From contig JAZBRS010000057.1 in the NCBI GenBank assembly GCA_037176725.1, forward strand, positions 84,093,501 to 84,157,500: DNA of 64,000 nt, in the 5' to 3' direction. How positions within the stretch are numbered: the first letter of the stretch is position 1; each line of letters opens with the position of its first letter. Below, piece by piece: positions 2,758 to 59,382 of the stretch. Source of the DNA: Posidonia oceanica (taxonomy: Eukaryota > Streptophyta > Magnoliopsida > Alismatales > Posidoniaceae). Below the pieces are notes generated by a model. That model saw only the letters and a program-made list of their open reading frames with translations. It was not told the DNA's origin and did no database searches. The position numbers and the translations under genes were made by a program.

Positions 2758-2825
2758 GATGCCCCTCCCTGAGTGAGGGCAAGCGGAGCGCGGCCGCTGC
2801 TCAGGGTTGACAAGACACCCCATCT
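2742..2825 (-). promoter_or_regulatory. Polypurine tract and nested inverted repeat, element A
   Basis: The sense strand reads CAGGGAGGGGCATC directly before the LTR tip, a typical plus-strand primer tract. Two inverted repeats surround it. The outer pair is 2742-2753 with 2814-2825 (12 bp, AGATGGGGTGTC against GACACCCCATCT), so the LTR tip pairs with a site about 60 bases upstream. The inner pair is 2767-2773 with 2800-2806 (CCCTGAG/CTCAGGG). The same arrangement occurs in C (26230-26309) and B (60836-60915). Confidence 0.8.
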
Positions 2826-2826
2826 G

Positions 2827-3304
2827 ACCAGCGGGAGCAGCGGGTTGCTATGGGTGTGGGCTACTTATTCGGCGGATGCACCGAAGATCGTAGCCCGTTG
2901 CCACAATGCAAGATGCCAGTGCAGGTGGATGCTGTGCTGTGTGTATGCATGCTGATGCAGGTGCAATGCAAGAGTTAGTATAAAAGTTAGTGCAGCTAGA
3001 AGAAAATGCTAATGCTGTGCAAGTGATATTGATGGTGTTAAAGTACTATGCAGTGCTAGCTAAGAAAATGCTGAGATGATGCAAAGAAAATGGTAAAAGG
3101 CGCGATGTGGTGCGACTGTCCGGCAGGGAGACCAGACTTGCACGACAAAGCGAAGGAAAACAGGGTGCAGCTGGTCCCCGCCCGGGGAGCAAGCTAGCAG
3201 GAAAGAAGGGTGCGAGGGGAGAGAGGCCAACTCTCCTATCGCAGGAAGGGGGTGCGTGACTTCATCTTCCTGGGACAAGGTCACGCCGAAAAGGAGAAAA
3301 AAAT
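2827..3304 (-). other. Element A, conserved 3' noncoding tail
   Basis: No gene is visible. The segment aligns loosely with 60380-60835 of element B and keeps short hairpins: GTGAC/GTCAC at 3256-3260 and 3280-3284, and a CCCC/GGGG hairpin near 3175-3190. Close to the LTR the words for a sequence ending in a CGAATAAGTA-like motif are shared with B and C. It sits between the hairpin array and the polypurine tract. Confidence 0.6.
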
Positions 3305-4216
3305 GATAAGGTGACGGGCTTATCGTCCGGATAGTTTACGGTCCTATCAACCGGGAGTGACAGTTTACGGTCCTGTCAACCGGAGCAGTTGTGAGTGATA
3401 GTTACTGAATATCAGCCGTATAACATGGTTGTGGGATAGTTTAGGAGTATCAGCCTAACGACAGTTTACGGTCCTGTCAACCGGTGGATAGTTTACAGAC
3501 CTATCAACTGGAGCGACAGTTTACGGTCCTGTCAACCGGAAACCACAAACCATGAGTGATAGTTACTGGATATCAGCCGTATAACGCAATGCCGGATAGT
3601 TTACAGTCTATCATCTGGAACGACAGTTTACGGTCCTGTCAACCGGCGGATAGTTTACAGACCTATCAACTGGAGGATAGTTTACAGTCCTATCAACTGG
3701 AAACGGCATTGCGAGGGACAGTTACTGGATGTCAGCCGTACAACATCATTGCGCGTGGTAGTTTACAGTCCTACCAACTGGTGGATAGTTTACAGACCTA
3801 TCAACTGGAGCGACAGTTTACGGTCCTGTCAACCGGCAAATAGTTTACAGACCTATCAACTGGAAACGCGCAATGATGAGGGATAATTACTGGATATCAG
3901 CCGTATAATGCAATTGCTGGTGATAGTTTAGGAGTATCAGCCTAACGACAGTTTACGGTCCTGTCAACCGGTGGATAGTTTACAGACCTATCAACTGGAG
4001 GATAGTTTACAGACCTATCAACTGGAAACCGCAATTGCAAGGGACAGTTACTGGATGTCAGCCGTATAACGTAATTGCACGCGATAGTTTACAGACCTAT
4101 CAACTGGAGCGACAGTTTACGGTCCTGTCAACCGGTGGATAGTTTACAGACCTATCAACTGGAAAAGTGCAATTACGAGAGACAGTTACTGGATGTCAGC
4201 CGTATAACACAACTGC
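3305..4216 (-). repeat. Element A, covarying hairpin-cassette array
   Basis: About 27-base repeats each form a short hairpin, GATAG...CTATC or GACAG...CTGTC, with GGTAG...CTACC once (3757-3761/3771-3775). They are grouped in five cassettes bounded by complementary words: 3424-3434 with 3543-3554; 3585-3593 with 3705-3713 (9 bp); 3744-3755 with 3867-3878 (12 bp); 3909-3917 with 4031-4039 (9 bp); 4070-4080 with 4167-4177 (11 bp). Between cassettes sits a hinge with its own hairpin, GATA...TATC or GACA...TGTC. An outer pair, 3385-3393 with 4208-4216 (9 bp), closes the domain. A GATAAG/CTTATC hairpin lies at 3305-3324. It is noncoding; its function is unknown. Confidence 0.9.
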
Positions 4217-4400
4217 GGGCCGACCATGGATCGACCAGAAGATAGTTTAGGAATATCAGCCTGAGATAGTTTCGGATATCAGCCTAGCACGAGTGATTGA
4301 TAGATTGATAGTTTCGGATATCAGCCTAGCACGAGTGATTGATTGATTGATAGTTTCGGATATCAGCCTAGCACGAGTGATTGATTGATTGATAAGAGGG
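4217..4400 (-). repeat. Element A, GATAG-TTTCGG-TATC repeats with GATT runs
   Basis: There are three near-identical copies of a unit of about 45 bases that contains GATAGTTTCGGATATCAGCC and ends in GATTGATTGATT. The word forms a GATA/TATC hairpin like the neighbouring array. The GATT run matches, in inverted sense, the (AATC)n tract at 59160-59372 of element B, so the order of modules is the same in both elements. Confidence 0.75.
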
Positions 4401-5180
4401 GGCAAGATCATGATGAGAATGATAAGATATCGGACTTATCGGCCGGCAAAGAGGGGATGAGGTAATGATGAGAAGTTGATCTAAAGAGGGGGATGAGATC
4501 ATGATGAGAAATTAGGCTAAAGAGGGGGATGAGATCATGATGAGAAATTAAGCTAAAGAGGGGATGAGATCATGATGAGAAATTAAGCTAAAGAGGGGGA
4601 TGAGATCATGATGAGAAATTAAGCTAAAGAGGGGGATGAGATCATGATGAGAAGTTAAGCTAAAGAGGGGGATGAGATCATGATGAGAAGTTAGGCTAAA
4701 GAGGGGGATGAGATCATTATGAGAAATTAAGCTAAAGAGGGGGATGAGATCATGATGAGAAGTTAAACTAAAGAGGGGGATGAGATCATGATGAGAAGTT
4801 AAACTAAAGAGGGGGATGAGATCATGATGAGAATTTAAGCTAAAGAGGGGGATGAGATCATGATGAGAAGTTAAGCTAAAGAGGGGGATGAGATCATGAT
4901 GAGAAGTTAATCTAAAGAGGGGATGAGATCATGATAAGAAGTTAAGCTAAAGAGGGGGATGAGGGAATGACGAGAATGATAAGATATCGGACTTATCGGC
5001 CGGCAAAGAAGGGATAAGGGAATGATGAGAATGATAAGATATCGGACTTATCGGCCGGCAAAGAAGGCGTAAGGGAATGATGAGAATGATAAGATATCGG
5101 ACTTATCGGCCGGCAAAGAAGGGGTAAGGGAATGATGAGAATGATAAGATATCGGACTTATCGGCCGGCAAAGAAGGGGT
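4401..5180 (-). repeat. Element A, 36-bp tandem array flanked by GATAAG hairpins
   Basis: About 14 copies of a 36 bp unit run from about 4455 to 4970 (copy starts at 4528, 4563 and 4599 show 35-36 bp spacing). Each carries the palindrome ATCATGAT and the purine run AAAGAGGGGGATGAG. A GATAAG...CTTATC hairpin followed by GGCCGGC stands before the array, and four more copies stand after it (about 4978-5180). B has a long GATAAG array at the same place but lacks the 36-mers, so these amplified only in A's lineage. Confidence 0.9.
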
Positions 5181-5247
5181 AAGGGAATGATGAGAAGAAA
5201 TCATCCCATGACGCCAGGAACGTCATAGGGGAAAGGGGGAAGGAATG

Positions 5248-5325
5248 ATACCAAGGGGCGATCAAAAGATGCCCCTGGTGTCGGGATGACACCAGGGGTT
5301 GGCCAGCGCGTCCTTGGCATCGAAA
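5248..5325 (-). repeat. Element A, CCCCTGGTGTC inverted-repeat module, copy 1
   Basis: CCCCTGGTGTC at 5272-5282 pairs perfectly with GACACCAGGGG at 5288-5298 over a 5-base loop. The module of about 80 bases is repeated at 5971-6050, where the stem is CCCCTGGTATC/GATACCAGGGG: both arms changed together. B has one copy at 58382-58408 with a single G.U-type pair. Confidence 0.85.
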
Positions 5326-5364
5326 GCAGAGAGTGATGACAAGAGTGTCGTGCTTGTCAGACGA

Positions 5365-6240
5365 GTTGTTTGGGGTACCAGCCTGCAAGGGACTCAGCTG
5401 AGGGCGATCAGCTGGGGACTCAGCTGGGGATGACCAGTCGAGAAGAGTGTCAGGTCGACGGACCTTTCGCCGAGCAGTTTGGGGTGCCAGCCCGCAAGGA
5501 ACTCAGCTGAGGGCGATCAGCTGGGGACTCAGCTGGGGATGACCAGCCGAGGAGAGTGTCAGGTTGACGGACCTTTCACCGAGCAGTTTGGGGTGCCAGC
5601 CCGCAGAGAACTCAGCTGAGGGCGATCAGCTGGGGACTCAGCTGGGGATGACCAGCCGAGGAGAGTGTCAGGTTGACGGACCTTTCGCCGAGCAGTTTGG
5701 GGTGCCAGCCTGCATGGGACTCAGCTGAGGGCGATCAGCTGGGGACTCGACTGGGGACGACCAGCCGAGAAGAGTGTCAGGTTGACGGACCTTTCGCCGA
5801 GCAGTTTGGGGTGCCAGCCCGCAAGGAACTCAGCTGAGGGCGATCAGCTGGGGACTCGATTGGGGACGACCAGCCGAGAAGAGTGTCAGGTTAACGGACC
5901 TTTCGCCGAGCAGTTTGGGGTGCCAGCCCGCAAGGGATAATGATCCAGCTGGGGGGCGACCAGCTGGGGATGATACCATAGGGCGGCCAAAAGATGCCCC
6001 TGGTATCAGGATGATACCAGGGGATGGCCGATGCGCCCCTGGCATCAGGACGTAAAGATAGATGAGTGAGTGGATGGATGATAGGTTGACGGACCTTTCG
6101 CCGGGCAGTTGGGGGTGCTAGCCCGCAGGGGACTCAGCTGAGGATGAACAGCTGAGGAGGATGACAGGTTGACAGACCTTTCGCCGGGCAGTTTGGGGTG
6201 CCAGCCCGTAGGGGCCGTGGTCCAGCCGGGGATGACCAGC
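5365..6240 (-). repeat. Element A, 109-bp tandem array
   Basis: The marker GTTTGGGGTGCCAGCC recurs at 5365 (variant), 5474, 5583, 5692, 5801 and 5910, an exact 109 bp period, with two decayed copies near 6105 and 6187. Each unit holds CTCAGCTGAG palindromes and the word GTTGACGGACC. A second copy of the CCCCTGGTATC inverted repeat (5997-6023) is embedded near the end. In B the related words occur as about two short copies at 58192-58320, so this array expanded in A. Confidence 0.9.
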
Positions 6241-6519
6241 TGGGGGCGCCGGATGGCGGAGCTTGATGTCGCGGGCCTGCAGATGCTCTGGGCTCCGGAT
6301 TGGGCGCTGAGGACTTCGCCGCGTTGGGATGTCTGCAAGTCTGATTAGGGGGCCCAAGATAAAGATGATGATGATATGCAATGCAGCAAAGAGTCTTGAT
6401 GCGCAAGTAGAAAGCAGAAACAGTTTCCATTGATATGATCTTGATAAGTACAACGCCTGCGGCAGGCCAGAAATGTACAGCACAATTGAAAGAAGACCAC
6501 ATGATGGTCGCACAAGGGC

Positions 6520-7722
6520 CTAGTCAACCCGGGCCTTCTTTGGCTGCCTGGAGTCGGGGAACAGGGGGCCGCTTGGCGGGACTTCAGTGATTGGCCAGAG
6601 CTGTCGGACTTCAGCTTCGTAATCAGGAGTGCATCCAGTACCTCTTACAGCTGCAACGTCTGTAGATTGGACCCCGTGCTGCATCAGACTAGCAAGCTTC
6701 TTGGTTGGGGCAGTGGTGCTGAGAGGATAAGTCTGTAGAAGCTCGGGCGCTGTACTGTCAATGAAGGCGCCCTGCTGGAAGCCAAACTGGCGCATGACCC
6801 TGATTGGGTGGTACTCTACGCCTGCTGTGAAGCCTGGAAGAATGATCAGCCGCGTGTCACGCGCGCTGAAGAAGATTGTGAATGGCTCTGCTGCAGAGGG
6901 AACGATGCGCCAGATCACAGCGTCGTCAGTCAGTGTTGACAGCCTCTCGTATTCTTCTTTGACGCTCTTGTCTGCTCTAGTACAGGCACTGCTGCAGTAG
7001 GCTTCGAAAGCATGCACTTGAGGGTGCAGAAGGTCCATCTCTAAGTGCGCGGTCAGCCAGACTTGTATGAGTGCTCCGCAACCGTGGAAGTGGCGGCAGC
7101 GATGAGAAATGCGGTCCAGCCCGCGATAAGTCTCTGCCAAGACAACTGGTGCCAGATCTATGTGCTGGGTCACCACAGCTAATGCAATCTCTGCGACTTT
7201 GATGGCCACTGTCAGTCGGCCATGAGTAAAGATTAGTTTGCCAAGGAAGCGGATAACAAATCCTCGGAGCCACAGCTCATCTCCGAGGTCAGCACGCTCG
7301 TTCATGATATCATCGAAGTGTGCAAGGCGAAGCATGGGCTCTGGTCCACTGGTGCAGATTAGCTTCTGTTGGCAGTCTTGAGTGGAGAGTCCAGTCAGTT
7401 GGTTCAGGACTCGGAGATATCCGTCGCGCCTCATGAAAACAGGCGGCCCCAGGATCTTTGAAAAGCCGCATATCCGACGCACCTCTTCCAGTGTGGATGT
7501 CAGCTCAGTTTTGTTGAAGCGGAAGACATGATGCGTCGGCTTCCAGAATCTCGCGGCGGCACACAGAAGGTGGCGGCTGACCTCCACATCAGCAGCCTTT
7601 AGCAGCTTAGTTGGTATGCCCCATAGGCGCAACTTTTCACAGTCTTGTAGAGTGAGCCTGCTGATCCACTCTCGCAGGGTTTCCGAGCAGTGTGCAGGAG
7701 TCAGCAGAGTAGGAAAGCCCAT
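6520..7722 (-). CDS. Plant-mobile-domain-like accessory protein of element A
   Basis: A 400-residue intact frame lies between pol and the 3' repeat zone in the sense orientation. I place the start at ATG 7722 (MGFPTL...), because element B begins at the equivalent ATG; the open frame extends 45 codons upstream. The sequence resembles the plant mobile domain family: a first helical block, then ARFWKPTHHVFRF (residues 57-69) followed by TSTLEEVRRICGF (75-87), and the later block WLRGFVIRFLGKLIFTHGRL (151-170). The C-terminus DSRQPKKARVD is basic and could act as a nuclear localisation signal (inference). Plant mobile domains are known from Arabidopsis MAIL1/MAIN and from mobile elements; extra ORFs are known in plant Ty3/gypsy elements. 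The role here is unknown. It is still open although gag-pol in the same element carries two frameshifts. Expression probably needs splicing or an internal promoter. Confidence 0.75.
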   Translation of the reverse strand: MGFPTLLTPAHCSETLREWISRLTLQDCEKLRLWGIPTKLLKAADVEVSRHLLCAAARFWKPTHHVFRFNKTELTSTLEEVRRICGFSKILGPPVFMRRDGYLRVLNQLTGLSTQDCQQKLICTSGPEPMLRLAHFDDIMNERADLGDELWLRGFVIRFLGKLIFTHGRLTVAIKVAEIALAVVTQHIDLAPVVLAETYRGLDRISHRCRHFHGCGALIQVWLTAHLEMDLLHPQVHAFEAYCSSACTRADKSVKEEYERLSTLTDDAVIWRIVPSAAEPFTIFFSARDTRLIILPGFTAGVEYHPIRVMRQFGFQQGAFIDSTAPELLQTYPLSTTAPTKKLASLMQHGVQSTDVAAVRGTGCTPDYEAEVRQLWPITEVPPSGPLFPDSRQPKKARVD

Positions 7723-9171
7723 TGTACTGGTTGCAGAAGACAGGCTGATTACTGCAAGGCTTGAGGTACCTGCTATCAATAAACAGTCAGATCTCGCAGG
7801 CATATAATCACTGACAGCAAGCAGAAATTGAGACTGAAAATGTAGTTCCATATGCATTCAGCAGAACATAGCAATTAAGCACAAATAAACAAAGGGAATT
7901 GGCAGCAGTCCGGCGCACTCGGGGGCGAGGGTTGGCAGGTGATCTGGACCGGCGCAGCTTGAGTGTCGTCGATGCGCTCTGCTGGGGAGGAGTATTGTCT
8001 CAGGGCCGAAGAGCGTTGCAGAGCGGGAGAGATTGATGGAAGAGGAAAGGAATGAAAGAGGATGCATGTATGCATGATGCAGGTGAAATGTTTATGAAGA
8101 TGAGTAGTATGCTTAGATGGATGAGTATGCTTGGGTGCCCTCAGCGTACGGAGTGCTTTGGTGCCTGCTGCAGAGGAAGGGAGTGGTCCTTCACTCACTG
8201 GGCCCTACTCAGACTCTCGGCTTATTGGTGGCGCTCCGGAACAGGTCGTTGGCATTATACAGGTGGTGATGTGGTGAGGACAGGCTACTGGCTGCACTCT
8301 TAGGACCTACACCTATTCTTTCAGCTCTTTTTTTTTTTTTGAAAGGTTTCTCCCTCATAGGTATGCAGTCTTTTTCTGCCCCTAGCTAGGAGAAGGTATG
8401 TGTTTGCTCTTGGGAGGATGTGGTGGACCTCTTTTTTAGGCTTGACACGCTGGGGATCTCTAGTAAAATATGGGGGATAACGGTGCCTGTGTTTTTTGGG
8501 CTACCTTTGCCCTTTTTCTTCTTCTTTTTTTTTTGTTTTGCTTGCTTTTCTCCTTTTTTTTTTGTTTCTGTTTTTGTTCTATCTCTTTTTTTTTTCTTTT
8601 TTTTTTGCTTGATCTTTTTCTCCTTTTTCTTTTTTTTTTTCAGGCTTTTGCTATCCCCATTCTGGTGGCAAAAGAAGGGTGCTTGAATTGTAATGGATTT
8701 AGGCTTTGGGTCTGCTGTGTGATGGGTAGAAGGAGCAGGGTCAGACTGCACACCCCTATCTCTAGGGCCGGCTTCTGTCTTCGTCTTCTGTTCCTTGGAG
8801 GTGCCCAAACCTAGATGTCTATTCTCACTTTTTTCAAGCTCACAACCTAACATTTTTTCTCCCTCAGAGGTGTATGTCCTTGCGAGATTAGGCATTTCGC
8901 CTGTCCTTATTGGTGGTGGCTCCCTCACTTGCTAAGACATCTAAGTAGTGCCAGGTGAGGCAGGGTGACTCTTTCCAGAGCAGGCAAGCACTTCTGGTTG
9001 TCATCACCAGGCTGAAGATGCAATGTTTGAGAGGATGACGATGATGATTTGAAAAGAAAGGGTGCAAGAGCTGAAAGGATGACGATGATGATTTGAAAAG
9101 AGAGTTGAAGCAAGAGGGCGAGAATGCAAGTGCAGGTGGGAGAAGGGTATCTGCAACGGGGCCGCTTTTGG
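7723..9171 (-). other. Element A, noncoding spacer between pol and accessory gene
   Basis: No convincing gene. On the sense strand 8510-8650 is an almost pure A/G tract, which gives long low-complexity frames that I reject. Motifs shared with B (49481-50608 and 56343-56709) include the 10-bp palindrome CCTAGCTAGG at 8382-8391 and repeated GAGGGAGAAA words. Possible 3' splice sites such as TTGCTGTCAG and TGATAGCAG precede the accessory ATG. The point matching the solo-LTR insertion in B is near 8075. Confidence 0.6.
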
Positions 9172-11575
9172 CTACTGATAGTACTTCTTCAGATAGCAGA
9201 GGTTGACGGGCTCAGACTGCTCGACCTGGTCCATATCCTCAAGGGTTACAGCGCCTCCCGAAAAGATCTGTTTGACCACGAAAGGGCCATGCCAGTTGGG
9301 TCGGAATTTTCCTCGACCGTCAGGCAAATGAATGGCGCGCAAGACAAGGTCCCCTGGCTGAAAGCTTCTGGGCTGGACCTTCTTCAAGAATGCTCTGGCC
9401 ATCCGCTTCTGATAGCAGTGAGCGTTGTGCATGGCTTGCAGTCTGCGCTCATCAATCAAGTTTAGTTGGATGCAGCGATCTTCGACCCATTCTGCTTCTT
9501 CCAACTCAGCTTCCCGCAGGATCCGCAGAGAGGGGATCTCCACTTCAACAGGTAACACCGCTTCCATGCCGTACACCAGAGAGTACAGGGTGGCTCCTGT
9601 AGAGGTCCGGATTGATGTCCTGTACACCCAGAGCGCGTACGGGAGCTTGTCGTGCCAATCCTTGTGGATTTCTGCCATTTTCTTCAGGATTTTGACAATA
9701 TTCTTGTTTGCAGATTCCACTGCTCCGTTCATCTGAGGCCGATAGGGCGAAGATCGATGGTGCTTGATCTTGAGACTTTGCAGGTATTCTTCGATCCTTT
9801 TGGCAATGAAATTTGAGCCGTTATCGGAGATGACAGAGTGTGGGACCCCATATCGGGCAACAATATTGTTTCTGATGAATTTTTCTGTTGCCGCAGCAGA
9901 GACCGTCCTATAAGAGGCTGCTTCCACCCACTTGGTAAAGTAATCGATCGCTACCAGAATGTAACGATGACCATTCGAAGCAGCAGGGTGGATGGGGCCG
10001 ATGACGTCGATCCCCCAGATGGAGAAAGGCCATGGCGAAGACATGTTGTGCAGCTGATGTGGAGGGGCCTTGATGAAGTTACCATGGATTTGACAGTTGT
10101 GGCATCTACACACGAACCGGCAGCAGTCGGCTTCTATGGTCTGCCAGAAATAACCTTGCAGCATGATCTTTTTGGCTAGGAGGACGCCATTCATGTGCGG
10201 GCCACAGGTCCCCGCATGCACTTGAAGCATCAGCATGTCAGCCTCCGATTTGTTCAGGCAGCGCAGTAGCATCTGATTGTATGACCTTCTGTACAGCTGC
10301 CCAGCCCCTAACACATACTTTGACGCCAGACGCGCCAAAGTCCTCTTGTCTGTTGCCGTGGTATCAGGAGGAAAGCTACCAGACTCCAGGAAGGATTTTA
10401 TGTCTTGATACCAGGGCTGCCCCTCTGCGGGATCCGCTTCCTCTATGCTCATGCAGTATGCAGGCTGTTTAATGCGAGTGACTGATACATCCACAGTGCT
10501 GTCTTCTGAAATGGTGAGCCAGGATGCCAGAGTTGCTAGTGCGTCTGCATACGCGTTCTTTGCTCTGTTCAGGTACGTGAAGCGGATGCTCTTGAATTTT
10601 TCCATCAGCCTCAGTAGGTGTTCGTGATACGGCACAAGCTTGGGATCTTTTGTCTTCCAATCGCCGTTCACTTGAGAAATTACCAGCATGGCATCGCCGT
10701 GCACATGCAGCTTTTGCGCCTCATGCTCGAGGGCGACTTTCAACCCCAGGATGCACGCTTCGTACTCTGCTTCGTTGTTTGTGCAGGTGAAAGTCAGCTT
10801 CCTTGCGAAAGGAGTCATCTGTCCTTGGGGTGTGGTCAGCACTGCACCTATGCCTCGGCCCTTCTTATTGACCGCACCATCAAAGTAGAGCCGCCATTCC
10901 TCTACTTCTTCGGGATCTTTCTGCTCAGAGTCCTCCATTGCAAAAAGAATGTCTTCATCAGGGAACTGTGTCTGGAGGGGCTGGTATTCAGGCAGAGGGA
11001 GGTCAGCAAGATGGTCTGCCATTGCTTGGCCCTTCATGGACTTCTGTGTGACGAAGGTGATGTCGTACTGGGACAATAACACCTGCCACTTGGCACATCT
11101 GCCCACCATGGCCGGCTTCTGAAAGAGGAATTTGATGGGATCATGCCGGCATAAGAGCTGCACTAGGTAGGCCATCAAGTAGTGTCTCAGCTTCTGTGCA
11201 GTCCAGACAAGGGACAGGCAAGTCTTCTCTAGTGTTGTGTACCTGGCTTCACATTCATTAAACTTCTTGCTCAGGTAGTAGATGGCGCGCTCCTTCCTGC
11301 CAGATTCGTCATGTTGGCCCAAGACGGCGCCCATGGAATGCTGCGTGGTAGAAAGGTAGAGAAGCAAGGGTCTCCCCGGCGTAGGCGGGACCAGGACAGG
11401 AGGCTTGATCAACAGCTGCTTGATCTTGGCAAATGCAACCTGACACTCCTCGCTCCAGTGAATCTGCGCATTCTTCCTCAAGAGCTTGAAGATGGGTTCA
11501 CAGATGGGCGTAAACTGTGCAATGAAGCGACTGATATATTGTAAACGCCCAAGCAGACTTCTGACTTCTTTTTCA
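9172..11575 (-). CDS. pol: Element A pol, 3' part: RNase H, archaeal-type RNase H, integrase
   Basis: The continuation of pol after a one-base deletion near 11575, open for about 770 codons. In order: the RT-linked RNase H remnant (LLLYLSTTQHSMGAVLG, where the usual first aspartate is absent); a second RNase H with FDG, NEAEYEA, HGDAMLV and AYADALA supplying the acidic residues; an integrase zinc region (CRCHNCQIHGN); the catalytic core with GIDVIG, SDNGSNF and AVESANK giving D, D and E; and a C-terminal region ending LCYLKKYYQ. Two RNases H with a decayed first copy is the hallmark of the Tat lineage. In the element the products degrade the RNA of the hybrid and insert the cDNA. The frame is complete to the natural stop, but it is cut off from gag by two upstream deletions. 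Confidence 0.9.
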
Positions 11576-14500
11576 GTCTTGGGGGTGGCATGTCCACGAT
11601 GGCTTGTGCTTTCAACGGGTCCACCTCAATCCCCCTTTGGCTAACAATGTGGCCGAGCAATTTGCCAGAAGATACCCCGAATACGCACTTCTTGGGATTC
11701 AGGCGCAGCTTGTACTTCCGTAGACGGTCAAAGAGCTTTCTGAGACAGGCAAGATGATCCTCGGGCCCTTTGGTTTTGGCAATCATATCGTCTACATAGA
11801 CCTCCACTTCTTGGTGCATGAGGTCGTGGAATAGCGCAGTCATGGCCCTCTGAGAGGTTGCACCAGCATTCTTCAGGCCGAACGGCATGACTTGGTAGCA
11901 GAAGACTCCCCAAGGGGTGATGAATGAAGTCTTTTCCATGTCTTCTTCTGCCATCTTGATCTGATTGTATCCAGAGAAGCCGTCCATGAAGGAGAGCATT
12001 TTGTGGCCCGCTGTGTTGTCGACTAGGACGTCGATATGAGGCAATGGAAAGTCGTCCTTGGGACTCGCCTTGTTCAGGTCCCTGTAGTCGATGCAGATCC
12101 AGATTCGGCCATCTTTCTTGGGCACGGGTACAATGTTTGCTAGCCATTCAGGATAAAGAACGACCTTCAGAAAGTTGACTCCAAGCTGCTTCATTATCTC
12201 TTCTTTGATCATGAGCAGCCACTGCGGTCGCCATCTTCTTAGCTTCTGCTTTACTGGCTTGGCATCTGGATTTAAGGGCAGATTGTGCACCACTATCTCT
12301 ATGTCAAGGCCGACCATATCTTCATAACTCCAGGCGAAGACATCCGCATATTCTTTCAGGAATGCGATGAATTCTGCTCGAGCCTGGGCGGACAGCTGGG
12401 CACTGATGCAAACTTCTCTGACTTCCTCAGCTGTGCCGATGTTGACAACCTCCGTTTCTTCTTCGACATGGAGGTTGGGGCCTTCTGGGTCGTCGTCATA
12501 GGGCCGGAACTCGGGCAAAGGTTCGTCAGTCTCGTCCATGCCCGTATCATCCTCTTCTTCATAAGCAACAAGTTCTGAGAGGATCTCTTTCTCAAAAGAG
12601 GGACTTGTGATGTCGGAAGAGTGCATGTGTTCCGCTGCTTGGCCTTGGTGACGCTTCATGATGGTCACGCTCACTCGAGTATTCTTGTAGCCTCGGTGCG
12701 CGACCTCCGTCCCAGCAACTCCTTCTACTGTTTGCTCTGGCCTGACTGATTCTGCTGAGTGCTCTGCCGACTGTGCTGCTGAGGCTGCTGACTGCTTTAC
12801 TACTGAGGCATTCTGCTCTGCTGCTGCTGCATCTACTGCTGATGCTCCTCCCTCTGGGTCTTCTAGTGTGCTCTTGGAGGATACGCCGGACTGGCGGCTG
12901 ATCTGGCCACTACCGCTCGATGTCTTGCTCCAGTGAGGCATGGGTTGCACAAACCACCTAGACCCGCCTTCTGGTTGAAGAGTGATGAACTCATCTGGTC
13001 TAGGGGAGTCCGGCGCTGCTGAGTCTTCTAGGACCATGATAGAAGCATGGTCCTCTTGTAGAGGAGGATCCGTAACTACGGCTTTTCCTTTCCTTTCTGC
13101 AGCTTGATGGTCTGCCAGGTCTTCTGCTATTGACTTGATCTGTTCTTGATAGAGTAGCTCTAAGTCAGACATCCAAGAATCGACCTGGGCTTCTATCGCC
13201 ACTCCTTCTTCCTCGTCTGAGGGGGAGTCGACGTAGTAGGCGCCGGGGGCCTGCGGCACTGGCCCGGCTGCAAGACGGATTGCTGCCCTTGGAGTCTGCA
13301 TGATCTGGTTCACGGGCGCGTCCGCTGATGGCAGTTCTGATGTAGAAGGCCCAAATAAACAAGTCAGCGGTGCCATAGATGGATATGCTGCCAGGGTCAC
13401 TGTTGGAGAGTAAGCAGGGGTGCTTTTCAGAGGGCTCAAGGGCCCGGAGAGTGTAGTGCTCAGTTGGCTTTTTGTATCGGTCCGTAACTGAGAGAGCGCA
13501 GCCTTTGACGCCATAGGGTCTTGCCATGAGAGCTGCTGCGGGTCGTCAGGAGAATGCGGAGTGGACTGCGCCAGCTGCATTCCTGAAGATGATGCTGAGG
13601 GAGCGGGCGGGGCCACGCTGCTGACTGAGTTGATAGACTGCCCCTCCAGAGATAGGGGCAGTGGCACTGATGTTGCTGTGACCGCTGGTAGCACACTTGG
13701 TTCTGCCAGAAGGAGTGTCTCTGACTCCTGCACTGCTGCTGACTGATCTTGAGGAGCTGATGTGGCCGCAAAAAGATGAGAACTTGCATTTGCCACAGGG
13801 CCTGCTGAGCTGCCTGCTGTTTCTGCCAGAGGGGGAGCTGAATAAACTGACTGTGGGGCCTCTGCTCCGACCACTGTTTCTGCTGAGCTGATTGGGACTG
13901 CCTCTGTTGCATCAGACTGCTCCTCATCCGAGTAGTAGTCCTCAACACACACCCAATCCTCTGCCGGAGCTGTGGCTTGGTAATTGGTTGATCCCAGAAT
14001 TCCTGCACTGGTAAAGTTAGTGAGGTCTCTGGGAATGGCTGGTGTATGGGCTTTGAGCTGGAAGCAGTGATCTTCGTTGAGCTTTGGTTCGTAGCCGAGA
14101 CCTTCCGATTTCCTTCGCTCCACAGCTACGATCGGCTCCGCGATCCCTTGGCCGTGACGCCCGAGTGGCGTACCCTTTGTGTAACCCCACCTGTGACATA
14201 CGTTCTCGACCATTCGAAAGGGGTTATTGTGAACGGCCAAGGAGTTGACACGTTCAAGATCCGGAACAAAGTTAACTGGCTCACACTGGTTAACACGATA
14301 GAGGGCTTCAGAAGTCTCGGGGTCAAATGGGATAGATTGCGAAGACACGGGGGAGACTGCTTCGATCCGCTCCTTCTCAAAGTTCTCCGCCATGACGATA
14401 ATGACATCATTGCCACGACGGTACTTTATCATTCGATGGAGGGTCGAAGGAAGGACCTGATGCTTGTGGAGCCAAGGGCGCCCAAGCAGAAGATTGAAGT

Positions 14501-15829
14501 TAGGCTTCAAGTCGACGACATAGAATTCTACGTCGAAGACGACCGGACTGATAGCCAGAGGGATAATCAAAATCCCTAGAGCGTCATGGTGAGTGTTGTC
14601 AAAAGCAGTCATTCCCTTCACGGCCGGTGTGATATCCTCGGCTTTGAATCCGAGCTTGGTTGCTGTACGCAAGGGGCAGACATTAAGGCCTGACCCGTTA
14701 TCAACCAGTGTTAGGGGAATGCGGAAGTTTTTGAACTGCACCGTGACGAATAGGGGCTGGTTGTGATTAATCCCTGCCGGAGGCAGCTCATCACTTGTGA
14801 AAGAGATGACCTGGGGCTCCGCGATTAACCCAACCATGCTCTCTAAGGCGGAAGGCTCAATGGACTGGGACACACGAGCAGCCTGGAACATGCGAAGGAA
14901 AGCCTCGCGGTGCTCGGCAGAAGTGTGGATCAAATCCCAGATGGAGATGTCGGCTTTAACCTTCTTAAGCTGGGAGGTTAGATCTGCTCTAGGTTGGCTT
15001 CTCCTAGCAGCTGGAGGGGTGGTTCTAGCAGGTTCTAAGGGGGTAGTGGCAGGGAGCTGGGTTACTACAGGCTGGACAGGGATTTGGCTAGCTACAGGCT
15101 GATCTGGAGTTGGATTTTCTATGGGTTGGCTAGAGGGTGGGGGCATAACAGGTCTAGAGTGAGTTGGCCTAGTTGCTGGTGCTGGGGGCCTATGAATCCT
15201 CCCCGATCGCGTGACTTTTGCGCACATTTCTGTGGCGTAGCTGTAAGGGACGCGATGGGTGTCCAGGGTCAAATCAATGACGACTGGAGCATGTGCTGCG
15301 AGCACAAGAGGGGTTACAGGGGGACCTACAGGATGTTGAGGTCTATCTAGGGGATATGGTTGTTGGGGTGGGAAGGCTGGGGCAGGTTGAGGTCTGCCTA
15401 GAAGGTGTAGCTGAGGCTGCCCTAAAAGGTGAACGGGAGAACTAGGCTGTGCTCTAGCTAAGAGGTGTACAGGAGATTGAGCCTGAGGGAGCGTGGTGGG
15501 AGGCGCGAGAGGGCGCTCTGGCCTGGCACGCGGTCGGATTAAATGGATTCCCGACTCGGAGCCGGCAACTGCCGCGAGATAGAGACTGACTGGGAAGGGC
15601 TCAGAGATGTCAGAGATAAGATCAGAAGGGTCTACTTCCGAGGTAGCAGGCCCAGAAGGAAAGACAGAGTGGACGCCTGAGGTTCCCGCCCCTCCCGGAT
15701 AAGAGTGCTCCGGTAAAGGTTGGCGGACGATGCCAGAATGCGGGGGAACAGCTGGAGATGCAGATGCATGAGTGTGTGCTTGAGTGGACGCCTCGTGCAT
15801 GTCGATCACAATCGTTCCCGATTCGATCA
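11478..15829 (-). CDS. pol: Element A pol, 5' part: protease, G-patch, linker, reverse transcriptase
   Basis: About 1450 codons open. The first frame codon here is TTG, and the frame actually enters from the gag zinc-knuckle region upstream. In order: a proline-rich spacer; an aspartic protease with LVDNGSG near residue 375; a G-patch-like segment near 545-590 (RWGYTKG, GRHGQGI, GLGYEP); a 400-residue Ser/Ala/Gln-rich linker; and the reverse transcriptase with YRDLNKA, FMDGFSGYNQ, MPFGLKNAG and YVDD at 11787-11798. Compared with B, one base is missing near 11575 after CCACCCCC, so the frame ends in about 30 nonsense residues. With one base more, the frame would run on into RNase H. The bases otherwise show no decay. 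Confidence 0.9.
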
Positions 15830-17908
15830 AGTCCTGAATTGCGTTCCGCAGGGAGAAGCAATTGTCCGTCGAATGCCCGACGCTTCGATGGAAATTCCAG
15901 AAGAGGTCCGGCCTAAACCAATGCGGCAGAGGGCTTGCGGCGGACGGACCTCTGGGAACTTCAGGAGCGATGCCTCCTTCGGCAAGATGACCGTGAGTGG
16001 TTCCACCAGTGGGGTGAAATTCCTCCTCTCAGCGGGTGGTCTTCTTTGCCTTAGGTGTGAGCCTTGCTGGACCGGTGCGGCAGGATAGACTGGTCTAGCG
16101 GTGGTTGTGATGTGCGGTGTGTGCAGGTTCCTAGGTGCAGGAGCGTACACCATCTGAGCTGGGGCAGGCCGAGACGGCAAGCGAACAGGCACAGCAGGAG
16201 AATCGACGAATGCAACAGCGGGTTTCGGCGAATCCTTCCTCTTCGGGCGGTTGTTGCTGCTGCCGCTGTTGTTGTTGTTGGAGGCGCTGCTGTTGGCATT
16301 GTTGCTGCTTATCACTGCCTGCTTAGCGAACGTAGAGAGAGCCGGGAAGTTGCCACTCCGCAAAGAACTCTCCACGCGCGCTCCAGCTCTGATGAGTGCC
16401 GCAAAAGTAGTGACTGGCTGAATGCTAAGCAGAGCTCCGAGAGACGGCTGCGCCCCTTTGATGACGATCTCGATAGATTCCTCGTCAGAGGGTCTATCTC
16501 GAACCTGAGAGGCAAAGGCGCGCCAGCGGCCGACGTACTCCCCGAACGGCTCGCCAGAGTTCTGCTTGATGGCGATCAAGTCCGCCCTCTTTGGGACAAG
16601 ATCGAGGTTGAAGGAGTATTGCTCCAGGAACGCCTGACTGAGGTCGTTCCAAGTCTTGATGGCTGACATATCAAGTGATGTGAACCACTTGAGTGCCAGC
16701 CCGGTCAAACTCTTCTGGAACAAGCGGATCAGCAACCTCTCGTCAGCCTGAAGCTGAGCGAGATCACCGCAATACGCCTTCAGGTGTGCTACGGGGCAGC
16801 CCCTACCATTATACTTCTCGAAGTCCGGGATTTTGAACTTCGGAGGGAGTACCGCCTCTGGAAAGCAACAGAGGTCCCAGAACTGGTAGGTCTGGTGCTC
16901 AGTACCCTGCACTAGTCGTAGTGCCTTCTCCAAGACGTCCATCCGGTTATTGATGGGGTCTGGAATTGCTGCTGCAGGAGGGGGATCAGCAGGGGTAGTG
17001 AGCACATACGCCGAATGGGTCGCACCTAAGTGCTCCTCCGGATCTACCATAGCGTCGCCTGGTGGAGCAACGGGATGGCCGGCGTATCCGTGCTGGGGGA
17101 CAGTGTATGCAGGAGTGTATGCAGGATGCTGGACTTGGTGGAGAGGAGAAGAATAAATGCCATGCTGTGCTGGGATAGGGGGAGGAGGACGGAGCGCCAG
17201 TTGCTGTACAGGCGGAGTGCCAGACAGCGAGCCAGCGAGGTACTGGGCTCCAGCCGGTCCAAAGGGTTGACCACCAGAAGGAAGTGGAGCATGCTGTGCC
17301 AAGTGTTGTGCAGGAGGCGGTAAACGGGCCCCCATCGTCGGAACCGTGAGCAGTTGCGATGATGGTCGAGGCGGAGGTGCAGAGGTTGATGCATGAAATG
17401 CAGGAACTGGCCTGGGAGGAACCTCAGGAACGACAGAGACAGAAGAAGGACGAACTGATAGAGCCATGCCCTGCAGTCTCTGGGCGAGCTCCATCAGATG
17501 CTGGTACTGTGCCTCGGGCGTCTCGCTAGTGGGGACGCTGAAGTGCAGTGCCGGCGGAGACTGAGAAACAAGTGGCACGGACACAGACTGTTCGGGAGGG
17601 AAGGATTCTACAGAGAAGGTCGCAGCAGCGGTGGAAGGGATGTCGAAAGCGACGTATCCCTGGGACGGAGGGGGCAATGGCGTCTCCGGAGCGCGAGTAG
17701 CGGCCGTCAAGATAGACTCGGCGACCGGATCCGGAGGAAGGGAGGCTTGCCACTGTCCCGGGGTGTACTGAGAACCTAGAGACGTCAGAGGAGGAAACCC
17801 TGGCATCGGAGGGGGAACAAGAGGGACAGAAAGAGCAACCGGAGGGGCCGAAACGGGAACACCCTCCGTGACAGGAGTAAAAGAGGACTCACTAACGTAC
17901 TGGGCCAT
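15827..17908 (-). pseudogene. gag: Element A gag (capsid), frameshifted before the zinc knuckle
   Basis: The start chosen is ATG 17908 (MAQYVSE), which B shares and which sits in a good context (GCAATGGCC). The same frame is open 53 codons upstream but has no ATG there. A Pro-rich N-terminal half is followed by the Ty3/gypsy gag core (KFKIPDFEKYNGRG through LKWFTSLDM and FLEQYSFNLDL, roughly residues 355-450), then an Asn/Ser run. One base is missing near 15935 relative to B, so the natural frame leaves gag and ends at TGA 15829-15827. In the correct frame the zinc knuckle follows, but its first Cys is Trp (TGG at 15897-15899; TGT in B at 42682-42684). Gag forms the particle and the knuckle binds RNA. 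The gag and pol frames are otherwise continuous, so the ancestor was probably one gag-pol frame. Confidence 0.85.
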
Positions 17909-22200: not shown

Positions 22201-25200
22201 GGGGGGGACTAAGATCACATTCCGCTGGCTGGAACATCGTGAAGGCCGGAGAACTGCGCCGGAGAAGATGACCGGACCGGCGAGCAGAAATGGAGCAGGA
22301 GGGCCGGAAAAGCTATTCTAAAGGGCAGAGAAGCAGCACGGGAAGAAAAGAAGACTAGGGGGAGAAAAACTTACCTCTTTATGCGTCTGAGTCGTCCTCC
22401 CAACGTCGGTGGCTTCAGCAGTCGTCGGCGGAGGTCGTCCGGTCGCTGCGGGTGCTGCCGGCTGCTCGCGAGGGCTGGAGCGGCTTCAGGACGTGCTTCC
22501 GGTGCTTCCCAGTCGAACGGATGGAAGCTTCAGATCTCAGAGAGAGATCTGGAACTTTTGGGTTCAGAGGATGAAGCCGGAGGTCGGAGAGGATGTTTGC
22601 TGCTCGTCTGGCTGGATGGAGCCCTCCGGGAGGTTGCTGGAGGTCCGGGGAGCGATGCTGGATGATTGGATTATGGTTCTGGAGAGTGTGGAGTGAGTTT
22701 GATGGCTGGGTCGTCTTCTGGTCCGAAGGTGACACAAGTGTTTGGAGTGAGGTTTAGGGTCTGTGGTGGGCGAGAAGGGCTGATGTTTGGGGCTTTGGAA
22801 AGGTGGAAGTCAGGTGAATAGCTGGGTGTAGTTTGGGAGGATTCTGTGGATTGTGGAGGGGGGAATTATGGAATGGGTTCTAGTTGGTTGCAGTTGGCTT
22901 CAGAGGATGATTTGGGGCAGTTTTGGGTGATGGAATGGCTGTAGAAAGGTGAAGGGGAATGGCTGTGTTTTGGGTGAACTTGGGGGAGTAATTGGGAGGA
23001 GGATGAAGGCCGGGAAGGGGTTTGGTTTTCTGGAAAAGAAGGAAGAAGGTTTTCTGAAGATTTCAGAAGGAATGGGAGAAGGATTAGGTGTGGAGATTGG
23101 TCTGAGATGAGGCTTCTCTCCGGGATGTCAAAGGCTCCCTCAGACACACTCTTCTGCTCTCTCTTCTGGAAATTGGAGGAGGCAGAGAAGAAGAGAGGAA
23201 GGTTGTTTCAGGTGGAAGAAATGGAGTGAAAATGCTCTCACTAACTGCTGGTGATGGTTTGCTCGTTGCTCGCTCTCACAGGTTGCCAACTGAAGGTCGA
23301 CTCTCCTCTGGATTGAAGGAAGGACGGAGGATTATATCTGGGGAGCGGAGGCTGCTGGCGCGCTGGGAGTTTTCAAATTCGGCCGGCGGCCACTGCAGCG
23401 GAGGGGACGGGGCGACCGGTCCCGGATTTGGTGCTGAGATGAGGAGACGGCGGGCTGCTGTAGACCGAAGTGACGGAGCTTCAAAATTCAAATGGAAGGA
23501 GGGAAGGGCAGCCGGCCGTCGCGGGAAGAATCTGCAGAAGAAGTTTGCAGAAGGAGAAGGAGGGAGACGAAGTGTGCGGGCCGGACTGCTGCGGGCCGAG
23601 AAAAGCAGAGAAAATAAAAGAAAAAGAAACGGGCTGGGTTGAGCCCAGTAAGGAAAAGTAAGAAAGAAAGAAGGGAAATAAGAAAGAAAGAGGGGGTAGA
23701 ATGGGGAAATAAAATAGGTAAAAATAAACTAAAAATAAGTAAAAATATTAGAAGAGTTGTGCTGTAGATTAGGATTTTAATTAAGATTTTTAATGGTTAT
23801 TTTGAGTTGATTAATGTGTTTTGGGCTTGATTAGGGTTTTAGGGTTTTGATTTTGTTTTTAATTGGTTTTCACTTGATTAAGTATTTGTTAAACCCTTTT
23901 TAAAATTATTTTAAAATTATGTTTCCTTTGTGGGACATTTAGAATATTGATTAGGATTTTTTTAGGATTTATTTTGTATTAATTTAGGGTTGGTTTTATG
24001 TTTTTAAGTTGTAGTCTTCTTAGGGTTTTTCTTTCTTAAATCTTTTAAGTTATGTTTTAATTTTTATTTATTGGTTATTTCTTGAAGTTTTTAGTTGGAT
24101 TTTTCTGGTTTGATAGGGTGTTTTTTAAGTCTTTTCAGATGTGTTTTTCTTTCCTTTTTAATTAAGTTTTTAACTTGTTTTTCTTATGTTTATTAGGTTA
24201 GGTCTTTTGCCTTCTTTAATTACTTGTTTTAGTGTTTGATTTTCAATTCTTCTTTTTGGGTTTGTTTTTTAATTCTTCTGATGGGTTTTTACTTTTGCTG
24301 GGTTTAGATCTTATTTTAGTTTTTTCCTTGATTTTTCAGTGTTTTCTTTTGATTTGTTTTGCATTTTTTAGTTTGCATGTTTGATTTTTCTTTTAACTTG
24401 ATTTAGTTAGGTTTAAGCTGTTAATAGCTTGTTTAATATTTTTTAATTGTTTTTCTTAAGGTTCTGATTTGTTGTCTTATGTTTTGAGGTTTTGCAGATT
24501 TTTATGGATTTTTGTGGATTTTTGCAAGAGAGGGAAAAGTAAAGGAGAAAGAGGAAAGAAATGGAAAAAGGGGGGGATAAAAGGAAAAAAGATAGGTTGG
24601 AGGAAAACGATTTTTTAAAAATTCAGAAAAAGTGTTAAAAATAAAGTAAAAATAGGGATAAGATAGAGGAAGGATAGAAGCACAGAGGGGGCCCACAGCT
24701 AGACCAGAAAAAGGATAAGAAAGGGATGAAAAGAGAGATGATAATCAGGAGAGAGAGAGGAGAGAGAAAATGATAATCCCGGAGAGAGAAAGGGATAATT
24801 TGGGTGAAAGAGGGTCCTAATGGTCTTGGAATGGGGTGAAAGTTGGTGAGTGGGTAGTCTAGGGTTTGAAGTCTTGGGTCTGAAGTTTTGGTCTGATTCT
24901 AAGGAGGTTTTGGAGGGGTTTCAAGGTGTAGAAGAAGGGTAGTTTCTCCTAAGTTTTCTAGGGTTTTCAAGGATGGGTTGGGTTTGGAAATTCCTAGGTT
25001 TTTTGGGTAGGTTTGTTGAGTGGATAGTGGTAGGTTTTCCTATGGATTTTGGTTAGGTTTTGAGGTTGGGAAGGGGGGTAAAGATTTAGGTCAAAATGGG
25101 CTGATTTTGAAGGGCAGAGAGGAGGATTAGGGTTAGGGTTTGGTTGGGGTTTGATCCAGCAATCACCAAGAGGACTCCAAGGGTCCAAGCCTGCCAAGAT

Positions 25201-25212
25201 GGGGTGTCAACA
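19237..25212 (-). mobile_element. Element A, 5' LTR (complete, 5976 bp)
   Basis: The left boundary (LTR 3' end, ...GATCGCTACA in sense) abuts the PBS; the right boundary is the LTR tip TGTTGACACC in sense. In sense order: C/T-rich head; AT-rich block; GC-rich block with a TATA-like word at 23329-23338; a strong donor-like AAAGAG|GTAAGT at 22380-22369; an AT-rich stretch with repeated TGCATTT words (about 20950-21900); a second donor-like CCAG|GTATGTCC near 20648; about 33-base GGCACGCAAAACG-type repeats (19905-20190); and the block GGGGGTGCCTAACACC near 19565-19585 shared by every LTR in the window. Frames on either strand in this region are low-complexity and are not called genes. Confidence 0.95.
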
Positions 25213-25217
25213 GATAC
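25213..25217. other. Probable target site of element A (GATAC)
   Basis: The five bases next to the outer end of A's 5' LTR. Tat insertions here make 5 bp duplications (see the solo LTR). The partner copy lies beyond the left window edge, so it is unconfirmed. Confidence 0.4.
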
Positions 25218-50608: not shown

Positions 50609-50613
50609 CCTGC
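50609..50613. repeat. Target-site duplication CCTGC, left copy
   Basis: CCTGC immediately precedes the solo LTR tip; the identical right copy is 56338-56342. The uninterrupted sequence in element A (ACCTGCATCA on the sense strand, near 8070-8079) contains CCTGC once. Confidence 0.95.
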
Positions 50614-57912: not shown

Positions 57913-58191
57913 AGCGTCCATGTAACTGCTAGTCTATCTTTTGCTGTAAACTTTTGGCTTGCCACAGGCATATAATCAAGTTCAATCAATACAAAGGCAT
58001 TCCGAGCCATCTGTTTGCATTCCAAATCTGCTTCAAGCGCATGCATGAACATATCAATCATATCTGTAGGGCCGTTGGCCAAACTTGCTGCCAAACACCG
58101 TAGGAAAGTCCTCATCAATCAACCCAAGTGCTGACCCATGACATCTGAACAAGCAAAGCTGCCGGGCACCGTCATCCGGATCTTCATCAGC
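57913..58191 (+). other. Element B, spacer after accessory gene
   Basis: No gene or clear repeat. It corresponds to A 6240-6519. Confidence 0.5.
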
Positions 58192-58440
58192 AGGCTGGCA
58201 CCCCCAACTGCCCAGCGATAGGTCCGTCAACCTGTCATTCTTGGCTGGCACCCCCAACTGCCCAGTGATAGGTCCGTCAACCTGTCATCATCCTTGGGCT
58301 GGTACCCCAAACTACTCGTCTGGCAAACACGACAGTTTTGTCTTCATCCTCTGCTTTCGATGCCAAGGACACGTTGGCCAACCCCTGGTATCATCCTGAT
58401 ACTAGGGGCATCTTTTGATCGCCCCTTGGTATCACTCTCT
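58192..58440 (+). repeat. Element B, TTGACGG-type repeats and CCCCTGGTATC inverted repeat
   Basis: Two direct copies of GGCTGGCACCCCCAACTGCC followed by GATAGGTCCGTCAACC (about 58194 and 58244), and a third diverged copy, match the marker words of A's 109-bp array. CCCCTGGTATC at 58382-58392 pairs with GATACTAGGGG at 58398-58408 over a 5-base loop, with one G.U-type pair. Confidence 0.75.
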
Positions 58441-58503
58441 CTCTCTTTCCCCCATGATATTCCTGGTATCATGGGATGATTCGCCCTTGCGAAATCCATT
58501 CAC

Positions 58504-59159: not shown

Positions 59160-59337
59160 TCAATTTTTTTCTTATCAATCTTTTTCAATCAATCAATCAC
59201 TCTTTTTCTTATCAATCAATCACTCTTTTTCTTATCAAACTTTCAATCAATCAATCCCTCTTTTTCTTATCAATCATCAATCAATCAATCAATCAATCCC
59301 TCTTTTTCTTGTCAATCATCAATCAATCAATCAATCG

Positions 59338-59373
<36 letters not shown>

Positions 59374-59382
59374 CTGCTCTTT
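59160..59382 (+). repeat. Element B, (AATC)n-rich simple repeat
   Basis: AATC runs interspersed with CTCTTTTTCTTATC, ending in a pure (AATC)n tract at about 59310-59372. A has a shorter inverse GATT run at 4290-4395. Confidence 0.9.

Follow-up and report, generated by a model that had tools for sequence, protein, structure and literature searches.

What is a repeat array that keeps five different pairs of complementary words, and what could it do for the element that carries it? The question arises from the window, the whole stretch of 64,000 nucleotides of Posidonia oceanica DNA that was analyzed, in which an earlier note, made from the letters, had described five cassettes, each bounded by a private word and its reverse complement, and a sixth pair closing the whole. 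All of these pairs were found where that note had placed them, letter for letter: CATCATTGCGCG and CGCGCAATGATG (3744/3867), CGTAATTGCAC (4070/4167), CGCAATGCC (3585/3705), TGCAATTGC (3909/4031), and CATGGTTGTGG and CCACAAACCATG (3424/3543), the last with one bulged base. The closing pair (3385-3393/4208-4216) is a perfect 9-mer.

The best explanation, with a probability of about 0.55, is that the array encodes a cis-acting and conserved RNA domain that an Ogre/Tat-type element carries in the untranslated 3' portion of its genomic RNA; this domain would display pseudoknots and most likely serve export or packaging. At the level of sequence, comparison of copies establishes the anatomy and shows that several subfamilies have conserved it; it also shows that the arms covary, as do the two crossing stems of the commonest unit. 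The crossing stems also favor RNA over DNA as the acting molecule, without proving it.

Host Element and Genomic Setting

The array belongs to a ~25.2-kb Ogre/Tat-type Ty3/gypsy retrotransposon on the minus strand of the window (element A), with the following features.

1-2757 (to ~2760), minus: 3' LTR, cut by the window start; TG boundary read from the sequence
~22456-25215, minus: 5' partner LTR, 99.4% identical to the 3' LTR; length ~2.76 kb
9172-15830, minus: pol ORFs with RT, RNase H, a second (archaeal-type) RNase H and integrase, by domain matches
6520-7857, minus: plant mobile domain (PMD) ORF (PF10536, E 1.8e-20), the last ORF, upstream of the array

In common with Ogre elements, element A is very large and has long LTRs and non-coding tandem repeats, the arrays here preceding the 3' LTR; it also has a G-patch ORF on the minus strand between the LTRs. 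The ORF at 9172-11481 matches RT_RNaseH (34-138), RVT_3 (199-317) and rve (484-581), the second RNase H being placed between RNase H and integrase as in Ogre elements, an order that suits Ogre and Retand equally. Dual RNase H order together with a PMD ORF corresponds to the description of Ogre elements, 57% of which carry this extra ORF, in the available part of the source (PMC6317226). A diverged second element (element B), in which a gag domain was detected, has its LTR pair at 33560-36635 and 60901-64000 (94.5% identical), and the LTRs of the two elements are ~71% identical where alignable. Inside element B, between pol and its PMD ORF, an LTR like that of element A (~80% identical) and a stretch like the 5' internal region lie at 50613-56337 (plus strand), as insertion of a partial element would leave them.

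The five-arm array sits between the PMD ORF and the 3' LTR and should therefore be part of the genomic RNA. In six of six copies, from three subfamilies other than that of element A, the domain stands behind RT, RNase H-integrase and PMD matches; none of the six is non-autonomous, and hence none separates a cis role from that of a passenger. Between the array and the LTR, the polypurine tract (2761-2771, minus) is enclosed by an 11-bp inverted repeat (region 2743-2824), in which sense GATGGGGTGTC (2814-2824) is matched with GACACCCCATC (2743-2753), with which the 3' LTR begins, and which has an inner pair, CCCTGAG/CTCAGGG, around the tract. Sequence similar to this repeat occurs in 16 of 22 loci, and the last pair differs in most.

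With at most two mismatches, the repeat core GTTGATAGGACCGTAAACTATC occurs at 447,748 places in the host genome (2.96 Gb, 80 contigs), and its reversed control at no place in the same genome. Viral contigs scanned with two unit patterns gave no match. The single genome-contig match, on a bacterial contig, was taken as chance, about two being expected by our own estimate for 19 specified bases in 257 Gb on both strands. A protein search with the PMD ORF returned ten relatives on short contigs, which are uninformative for the RNA.

Anatomy of the Five-Arm Domain

In the sense of the element, the domain and its immediate neighbors are composed as follows.

4208-4216, minus: closing stem, 5' arm, sense GCAGTTGTG
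3385-3393, minus: closing stem, 3' arm, sense CACAACTGC
4070-4177, minus: arm 1, sense CGTAATTGCAC (4167-4177) pairing with GTGCAATTACG (4070-4080)
4138-4162, 4111-4135, 4083-4107, minus: pseudoknots of arm 1
3909-4039, minus: arm 2, sense TGCAATTGC (4031-4039) pairing with GCAATTGCA (3909-3917)
4001-4025, 3974-3998, 3947-3971, minus: pseudoknots of arm 2, with an AGG/CCT type unit at 3922-3945
3744-3878, minus: arm 3, sense CATCATTGCGCG (3867-3878) pairing with CGCGCAATGATG (3744-3755)
3839-3863, 3812-3836, 3784-3808, 3757-3781, minus: pseudoknots of arm 3
3585-3713, minus: arm 4, sense CGCAATGCC (3705-3713) pairing with GGCATTGCG (3585-3593)
3676-3700, 3649-3673, 3622-3646, minus: pseudoknots of arm 4, with a shortened unit near 3595-3618
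3424-3554, minus: arm 5, sense CATGGTTTGTGG (3543-3554) pairing with CCACAACCATG (3424-3434), one bulge
3515-3539, 3487-3511, 3460-3484, minus: pseudoknots of arm 5, with an AGG/CCT type unit at 3435-3458
4181-4208, 4043-4070, 3882-3909, 3717-3744, 3558-3585, 3397-3424, minus: six linkers, sense GTTATACGGCTGAYATCCAGTAACTRTC
3359-3383, 3330-3354, minus: two pseudoknots of the commonest type (t1) 3' of the closing stem, with a GATAAG type unit at 3305-3331
59435-60240, plus: five-arm domain of element B, homologous to that of element A, with closing arms at 59435-59443 and 60232-60240

The five arms and the closing stem recur in this order in diverged element B, whose arm 4 stem is one A-U pair longer. 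Pairing of each word with its own partner outscores all 119 alternative permutations, within either element as well as in the two A-by-B crosses; being the best of 120, the private pairs are not due to chance. The minus strand of 3300-4230, folded as the earlier note had proposed, has an energy below those of all 20 dinucleotide shuffles (z = -3.36).

The linkers stand before, between and after the arms and have a GAYA/TRTC stem with GG/CC. In element A, three of the six carry GACA/TGTC and three GATA/TATC. They pass the shuffle control poorly, 59 of 500 shuffles doing as well. A GUUA/UAAC pairing was left out of the linker pseudoknot, since no loop would remain between the stems. In the linkers at 3397-4208 (minus), GUUA/UAAC with CUG/CAG is nevertheless a possible alternative that could hardly coexist with GAYA/URUC, and the linkers may switch between alternative stems.

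Conservation and Covariation of the Arms

Other copies were drawn from the genome in several samples. The first 20 loci (L010-L029) came from the first matches on one contig (C1) and were not chosen for arms, while a second 20 (L030-L049) were chosen by an intact 3' word of arm 3. Further samples comprised six upstream stretches and 16 copies with a mismatch in arm 3 (L056-L071). Subfamilies were sorted by eye from the words, without a tree. F1 holds element A of the window, L012 and L030-L049, which are near-identical to one another, so that this subfamily is probably young. F2 holds element B and most of L010-L029; F3 (L010, L014, L020, L021, L025) has arms 3 and 4 in swapped order; and F4 consists of L022 and L028. 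One inter-linker segment of L022 begins with CACAACTGCA and finishes with TGCAGTTGTG; these are the closing words in reversed order, which two tandem arm domains would be expected to give.

Exactly five cassettes were counted in 34 of 42 loci, four in four and fewer in four, 20 of the 42 having been chosen by one arm word. Counting G-U pairs, the closing stem is fully paired in 35 of the 38 loci tested and perfect in 31; four of the 42 were skipped for having too few linkers, one of them without a cassette. The closed domain is 696-865 nt long in this survey. The cassette, closing-stem and arm-row counts used a strict linker test that excludes AGG/CCT units.

The two elements of the window and L010-L029 together gave 97 cassettes, in whose outer eight pairs 731 of 776 cells are paired; all outer seven pairs are standard in 76 of the 97. 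Among the 32 distinct arm rows of this set, 89.8% of cells are paired, compared with 74.2% in shuffles, and 56 cells are changed on both sides, compared with 18.8 (0 of 1000 shuffles as high). Extending the set to all 58 loci, with 262 cassettes and 42 distinct rows, gave 72 such cells against 21.8, again with 0 of 1000 shuffles as high. For the 38 rows of the 42 loci, 20 of which were chosen by one word, sliding the partners lowered covariation from 0.615 to at most 0.135. In shuffles of these rows, four of five measures were reached by 0 to 2 of 500, and the fifth, which counts pairs with both sides changed, was reached by 17 of 500. Their fourth arm pair is A-U in 22, G-C in nine, C-G in three, G-U in two and unpaired in two. 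Swapping arms between cassettes reduced the mean score from 22.6 to 14.2, and a score of at least 18 was reached by 89 of 97 own but 1764 of 9008 swapped pairs, in a test that used a looser linker criterion and cut arm 2 of some F1 copies wrongly.

Unconstrained RNAalifold of 12 copies recovered the closing stem and three of the five arm stems (arms 2, 3 and 5), with arm 3 changed on both sides at six of eight pairs; the stems of arms 1 and 4 were not recovered from these copies. Overall, the five-arm domain proposed by the earlier note is upheld by the 34 of 42 loci with five cassettes and by arms that covary against shuffled and slid controls. The number five is not general, since a further subfamily among L056-L071 has four arms in the copies read, and three in one of them.

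The Commonest Unit

The small inverted repeats within the arms had been read as simple hairpins, a reading that has to be replaced: most are predicted to be H-type pseudoknots with a second, crossing stem. The sense unit of the commonest type, t1, is CGG-UU-GAUAG-GN-CCG-UAAA-CUAUC, in which CGG/CCG (stem 1) crosses GAUAG/CUAUC (stem 2). Three to four units per arm, the number given before, applies to element A, while arms of other copies hold one to five units of the commonest type.

The layout was scanned for strictly, with Watson-Crick pairs only (stem 1 of 3 bp, loop of 2, stem 2 of 4-6 bp, gap of 0-2, loop of 4). Positions 3300-6300 of element A hold 28 such units (shuffle mean 0.6, maximum 2; antisense 2) and positions 58180-60420 of element B hold 17 (shuffle mean 0.7, maximum 4; antisense 3). 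Across the whole window there are 33 matches on the plus strand and 42 on the minus, and kilobase bins with at least four occur at the two arrays only. The 42 loci gave 934 units, chance matches included. Different letters meet the same layout: stem 1 may be CGG, CAG, AGG, TGG or GGG, and stem 2 GATAG, GACAG, GGTAG, GATAAG, GATA, GATGA or GGCA. Moreover, the stems are combined in several ways, CGG/CCG with GATAG, GACAG, GATAAG, GATGA and GATA, and TGG/CCA with GATGA, GATA and GATAAG.

Both stems are complete in all 18 t1 units of element A, whereas pairing with the 3' arm of the next unit completes stem 1 in 12 of 17 and stem 2 in 11 of 17. The same comparison is uninformative in element B (stem 1, own 16/20, next 16/19; stem 2, own 19/20, next 17/19), because nearly all of its units are of one kind. 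The 117 distinct t1 rows contain 18 double-changed cells in stem 1 (8.7 expected) and nine in stem 2 (1.6 expected), values reached by 0 of 1000 shuffles; as the rows are related by duplication, these cell counts overstate the number of events. Among the 41 rows seen at least twice, the counts are 10 against 4.7 and three against 0.2 (1 of 1000 shuffles each). For the 21 distinct rows of the window, three of five measures were reached by 2 of 500 shuffles, and the other two were not unusual (34 and 470 of 500 as high). One F1 unit segregates an A-U pair (nine copies), a G-C pair (eight) and a G-U intermediate (one).

Stem 1 is short, at 2-3 bp, and five units folded alone take one hairpin, stem 1 or stem 2 depending on type, with a program that cannot predict pseudoknots. 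A fourth stem-1 pair was dropped, its 3' base being hypervariable and pairing in 10 of 18 units of element A and 10 of 20 of element B.

Other Unit Classes and Arrays

Upstream of the closed domain of element A lie further units, some of which share the pseudoknot layout; the last line gives the units of element B as a whole.

4241-4394, minus: an AGG/CCT type unit (4241-4264) together with related units in a 42-nt tandem array; both lie 5' of the domain
5143-5169, 5088-5114, 5033-5059, 4978-5004, 4421-4447, minus: GATAAG type pseudoknots, sense GCCGGCCGATAAGTCCGATATCTTATC
5364-6209, minus: 109-nt array and flanks, with eight GGCA/TGCC type and seven AGGT/ACCT type units
5208-5226, minus: hairpin ATGACG/CGTCAT, ATGATA/TATCAT in element B
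5272-5298, minus: hairpin CCCCTGGTGTC/GACACCAGGGG
58190-60380, plus: all pseudoknot-type units of element B (20 t1, six linkers, 16 GATAAG type, others)

The fit of these classes to the layout is uneven. The outer stem-1 pair is mismatched in the 42-nt array. In the 21-nt AGG/CCT class (121 units), it is standard in 59 units and mismatched in 62, 46 of which are one variant. Of 35 units of the GATGA class, 34 have the standard pair, and when the two classes were counted together by a looser rule at 22 loci, the figure was 80 of 99. The GATAAG units pass the shuffle control poorly (101 of 500 shuffles). Units of this type, with up to seven mismatches, number from one to 24 per copy in L010-L029, most of which keep five arms. 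A 36-nt tandem array of 14.4 units (4448-4963, minus) without the pseudoknot layout interrupts them; similar repeats occur in L012 and L014, and none was reported in element B.

The units at 5364-6209 resemble the layout loosely. Stem 2 is complete in six of the eight GGCA type units, and the AGGT units fit poorly, with stem 2 complete in none of seven as drawn and stem 1 in all seven in element A, and with stem 2 complete in two of two and stem 1 in neither in element B. Pairing in the hairpin at 5208-5226 is kept at eight of nine matched places in the sampled loci. The hairpin at 5272-5298 recurs as GGTATC/GATACC at 5997-6023 and in element B.

Broken and Apparently Restored Pairs

The history of individual pairs can be followed in arms 3 and 4. 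The fourth pair of arm 3 is C-G in element A and G-C in F2 copies, element B among them. Genome-wide, 6,535 cassettes combine 5' CATCATTGCGC with 3' CAATHATG and so have A, C or T where G would pair. The pairing pattern CAATGATG has 6,234 strand matches, nearly all of them cassettes counted twice, and thus corresponds to ~3,100. All 16 mismatched copies read, seven of them F1-like and nine forming the further subfamily, carry C x C at this pair. The C x C state is therefore commoner than the restored C-G state, and roughly two thirds of the lineage have this pair broken; with 6,535 unpaired against ~3,100 restored cassettes, a broken pair is tolerated. The simplest order of events is G-C to C x C to C-G.

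Arm 4 offers a like series, both halves being long in F2, one shortened in seven of nine further-subfamily copies, whose halves differ by one base, and both short in F1. It appears that such pairs were restored, and in arm 3 only after the broken state had reached thousands of copies. The earlier note had held that its domain would fall if one arm changed without the other as often as expected by chance; this is not so overall, but it is the case locally at arm 3. In L056-L071, broken intermediates and restored states stand side by side as a natural series of compensatory change.

Proposed Function and Alternative Explanations

We infer that the domain folds as RNA in vivo. A 9-bp stem would close a multiloop of about 0.7-0.9 kb, from which usually five, sometimes four, arms would emerge, each with its own 8-12-bp stem and joined to the next by linker units. 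Each arm would bear one to five compact H-type pseudoknots of the commonest type, further units of like layout lying mostly upstream. Adjacent near-identical repeats would be prone to misfold onto one another; with private words, each arm may pair within itself, and the multiloop may owe the layout of its arms to the linkers and the closing stem. The product would be a surface with many copies of one knot, suiting a protein that makes many weak contacts. By analogy, the most likely function is the routing of the full-length RNA, through nuclear export, packaging or both, with translation or stability ranked second.

The strongest competitor, which nevertheless seems unlikely, is a 3' translation or stability domain like the viral upstream pseudoknot domain, which would raise translation or protect against exonucleases rather than route the RNA. 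The known viral upstream pseudoknot domains hold a few pseudoknots each, whereas the branched array here would have twenty or more. Exonuclease-resistant plant viral RNAs pair their loop with the 3' flank, while the sense layout here pairs it with the 5' flank. In addition, Rfam 15 covariance models gave no match, tRNA-like or other, in the window including the LTR at the gathering threshold or in 2760-6500 at E up to 1. This alternative nonetheless gains from the position of the domain, downstream of the pol and PMD ORFs, and from the consecutive small pseudoknots in a 3' UTR, which are the form of the viral domain as far as the available part of the source goes (PMC10976276).

Less probable than either RNA reading is a DNA-level feature, in which the inverted repeats would act as single-stranded DNA or cruciforms in replication, or as sites for DNA-binding proteins. 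Inverted repeats are identical on both strands, and the substitutions give this view some room: single changes in t1 stem 1 (295 units, 22 loci) show no excess of G-U, with 26 against 32 A-C, and the arm rows show little bias, with 17 G-U and 12 A-C cells in 38 distinct rows. However, the t1 units of F1 (18 copies with exactly 18 such units) depart from Watson-Crick pairing in 10 distinct G-U events, three A-C and one other, a lean that points weakly in the direction expected of sense RNA. Furthermore, a DNA site or cruciform needs no two crossing stems with fixed loops that recur in different letters. In pseudoknots, a 2-nt loop spans the deep groove of a 5-bp stem and a 4-nt loop spans a 3-bp stem, and the loop lengths here fit the sense strand, with 2 nt over the deep groove of the 5-bp stem and four A-rich nt over the 3-bp stem.

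It is similarly doubtful that the array is a by-product of replication, its tandem repeats made by strand transfer and its palindromes kept perfect by template-switch correction without selection: such repeats are common in the 3' UTR of the Tat lineage, for which illegitimate recombination or abnormal strand transfer was proposed (PMC7004042, in the part available), arrays differ widely in length and arms in their number of units, and template switching could also produce the broken and restored states of arm 3 and the unequal halves of arm 4, but it should not readily correct 3-nt crossing stems, which covary, elements A and B, with LTRs ~71% identical where alignable, agree in arm order and private words (F3 has two arms swapped), and the layout recurs in units of different letters.

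If the cis-acting domain is indeed a working RNA scaffold, this would explain the persistence of repeats at that place and provide a handle on the export and packaging of plant LTR-retrotransposon RNA. Its thousands of copies would then be a natural series of broken and restored base pairs. More tentatively, the domain may found a class of its own among large ornate RNAs, as a polyvalent scaffold with about twenty or more like H-type pseudoknots on self-folding arms. Tat/Ogre 3' UTR repeats would then be, in general, selected RNA machinery, a platform for sorting or packaging genome RNA, and not replication by-products.

Comparison with Known Systems

The hypervariable 3' UTR tandem repeats of Tat/Ogre elements are said to have been described by Macas et al. 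in 2009. The repeats and their place are thus known, and we cannot match the architecture seen here to that of any described RNA. The literature searched, in the parts available, held no report of a folded domain or of pseudoknots in these repeats, which have been regarded as by-products of high variability from which satellite DNA can spring (PMC7004042). In lineage, in place and in varying repeat number and length, the array here is like those repeats. In contrast, the available part of that source presents them as variable and as a source of satellites, and mentions no fold, fixed arms or pseudoknots.

The viral upstream pseudoknot domain resembles the present one in that compact H-type pseudoknots follow one another in the 3' UTR of a plant RNA, a feature that sequence grammar and covariation point to here as well. 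The viral domain, so far as its partial description goes (PMC10976276), has a tRNA-like 3' end, whereas the Rfam models matched no such end here, and the domain is internal to the transcript, branched and larger.

Among retroviral elements, the post-transcriptional element of MLV/XMRV, of ~1,400 nt and seven stem-loops, promotes export of retroviral RNA and is likewise a large multi-stem cis RNA region. It belongs to another element class, and the part of the source available describes no pseudoknot array in it (PMC5767303). Export of LTR-retrotransposon RNA has not been directly studied in plants, according to the available part of a second source (PMC12786077). In the mouse LTR retrotransposon musD, a pseudoknot and a kissing loop of the transport element (MTE) are needed for export (PMC5767303, PMC12786077, both in part). 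The MTE has one pseudoknot and one kissing loop, shown by experiment, while the domain here would have many predicted pseudoknots on arms. Overall, the two would share a cis-acting RNA, a pseudoknot, a long-range interaction and the export of full-length RNA, and the tertiary contact within a structured RNA that marks elements of the MTE/CTE type may have a counterpart here, as the covariation of the crossing stems suggests.
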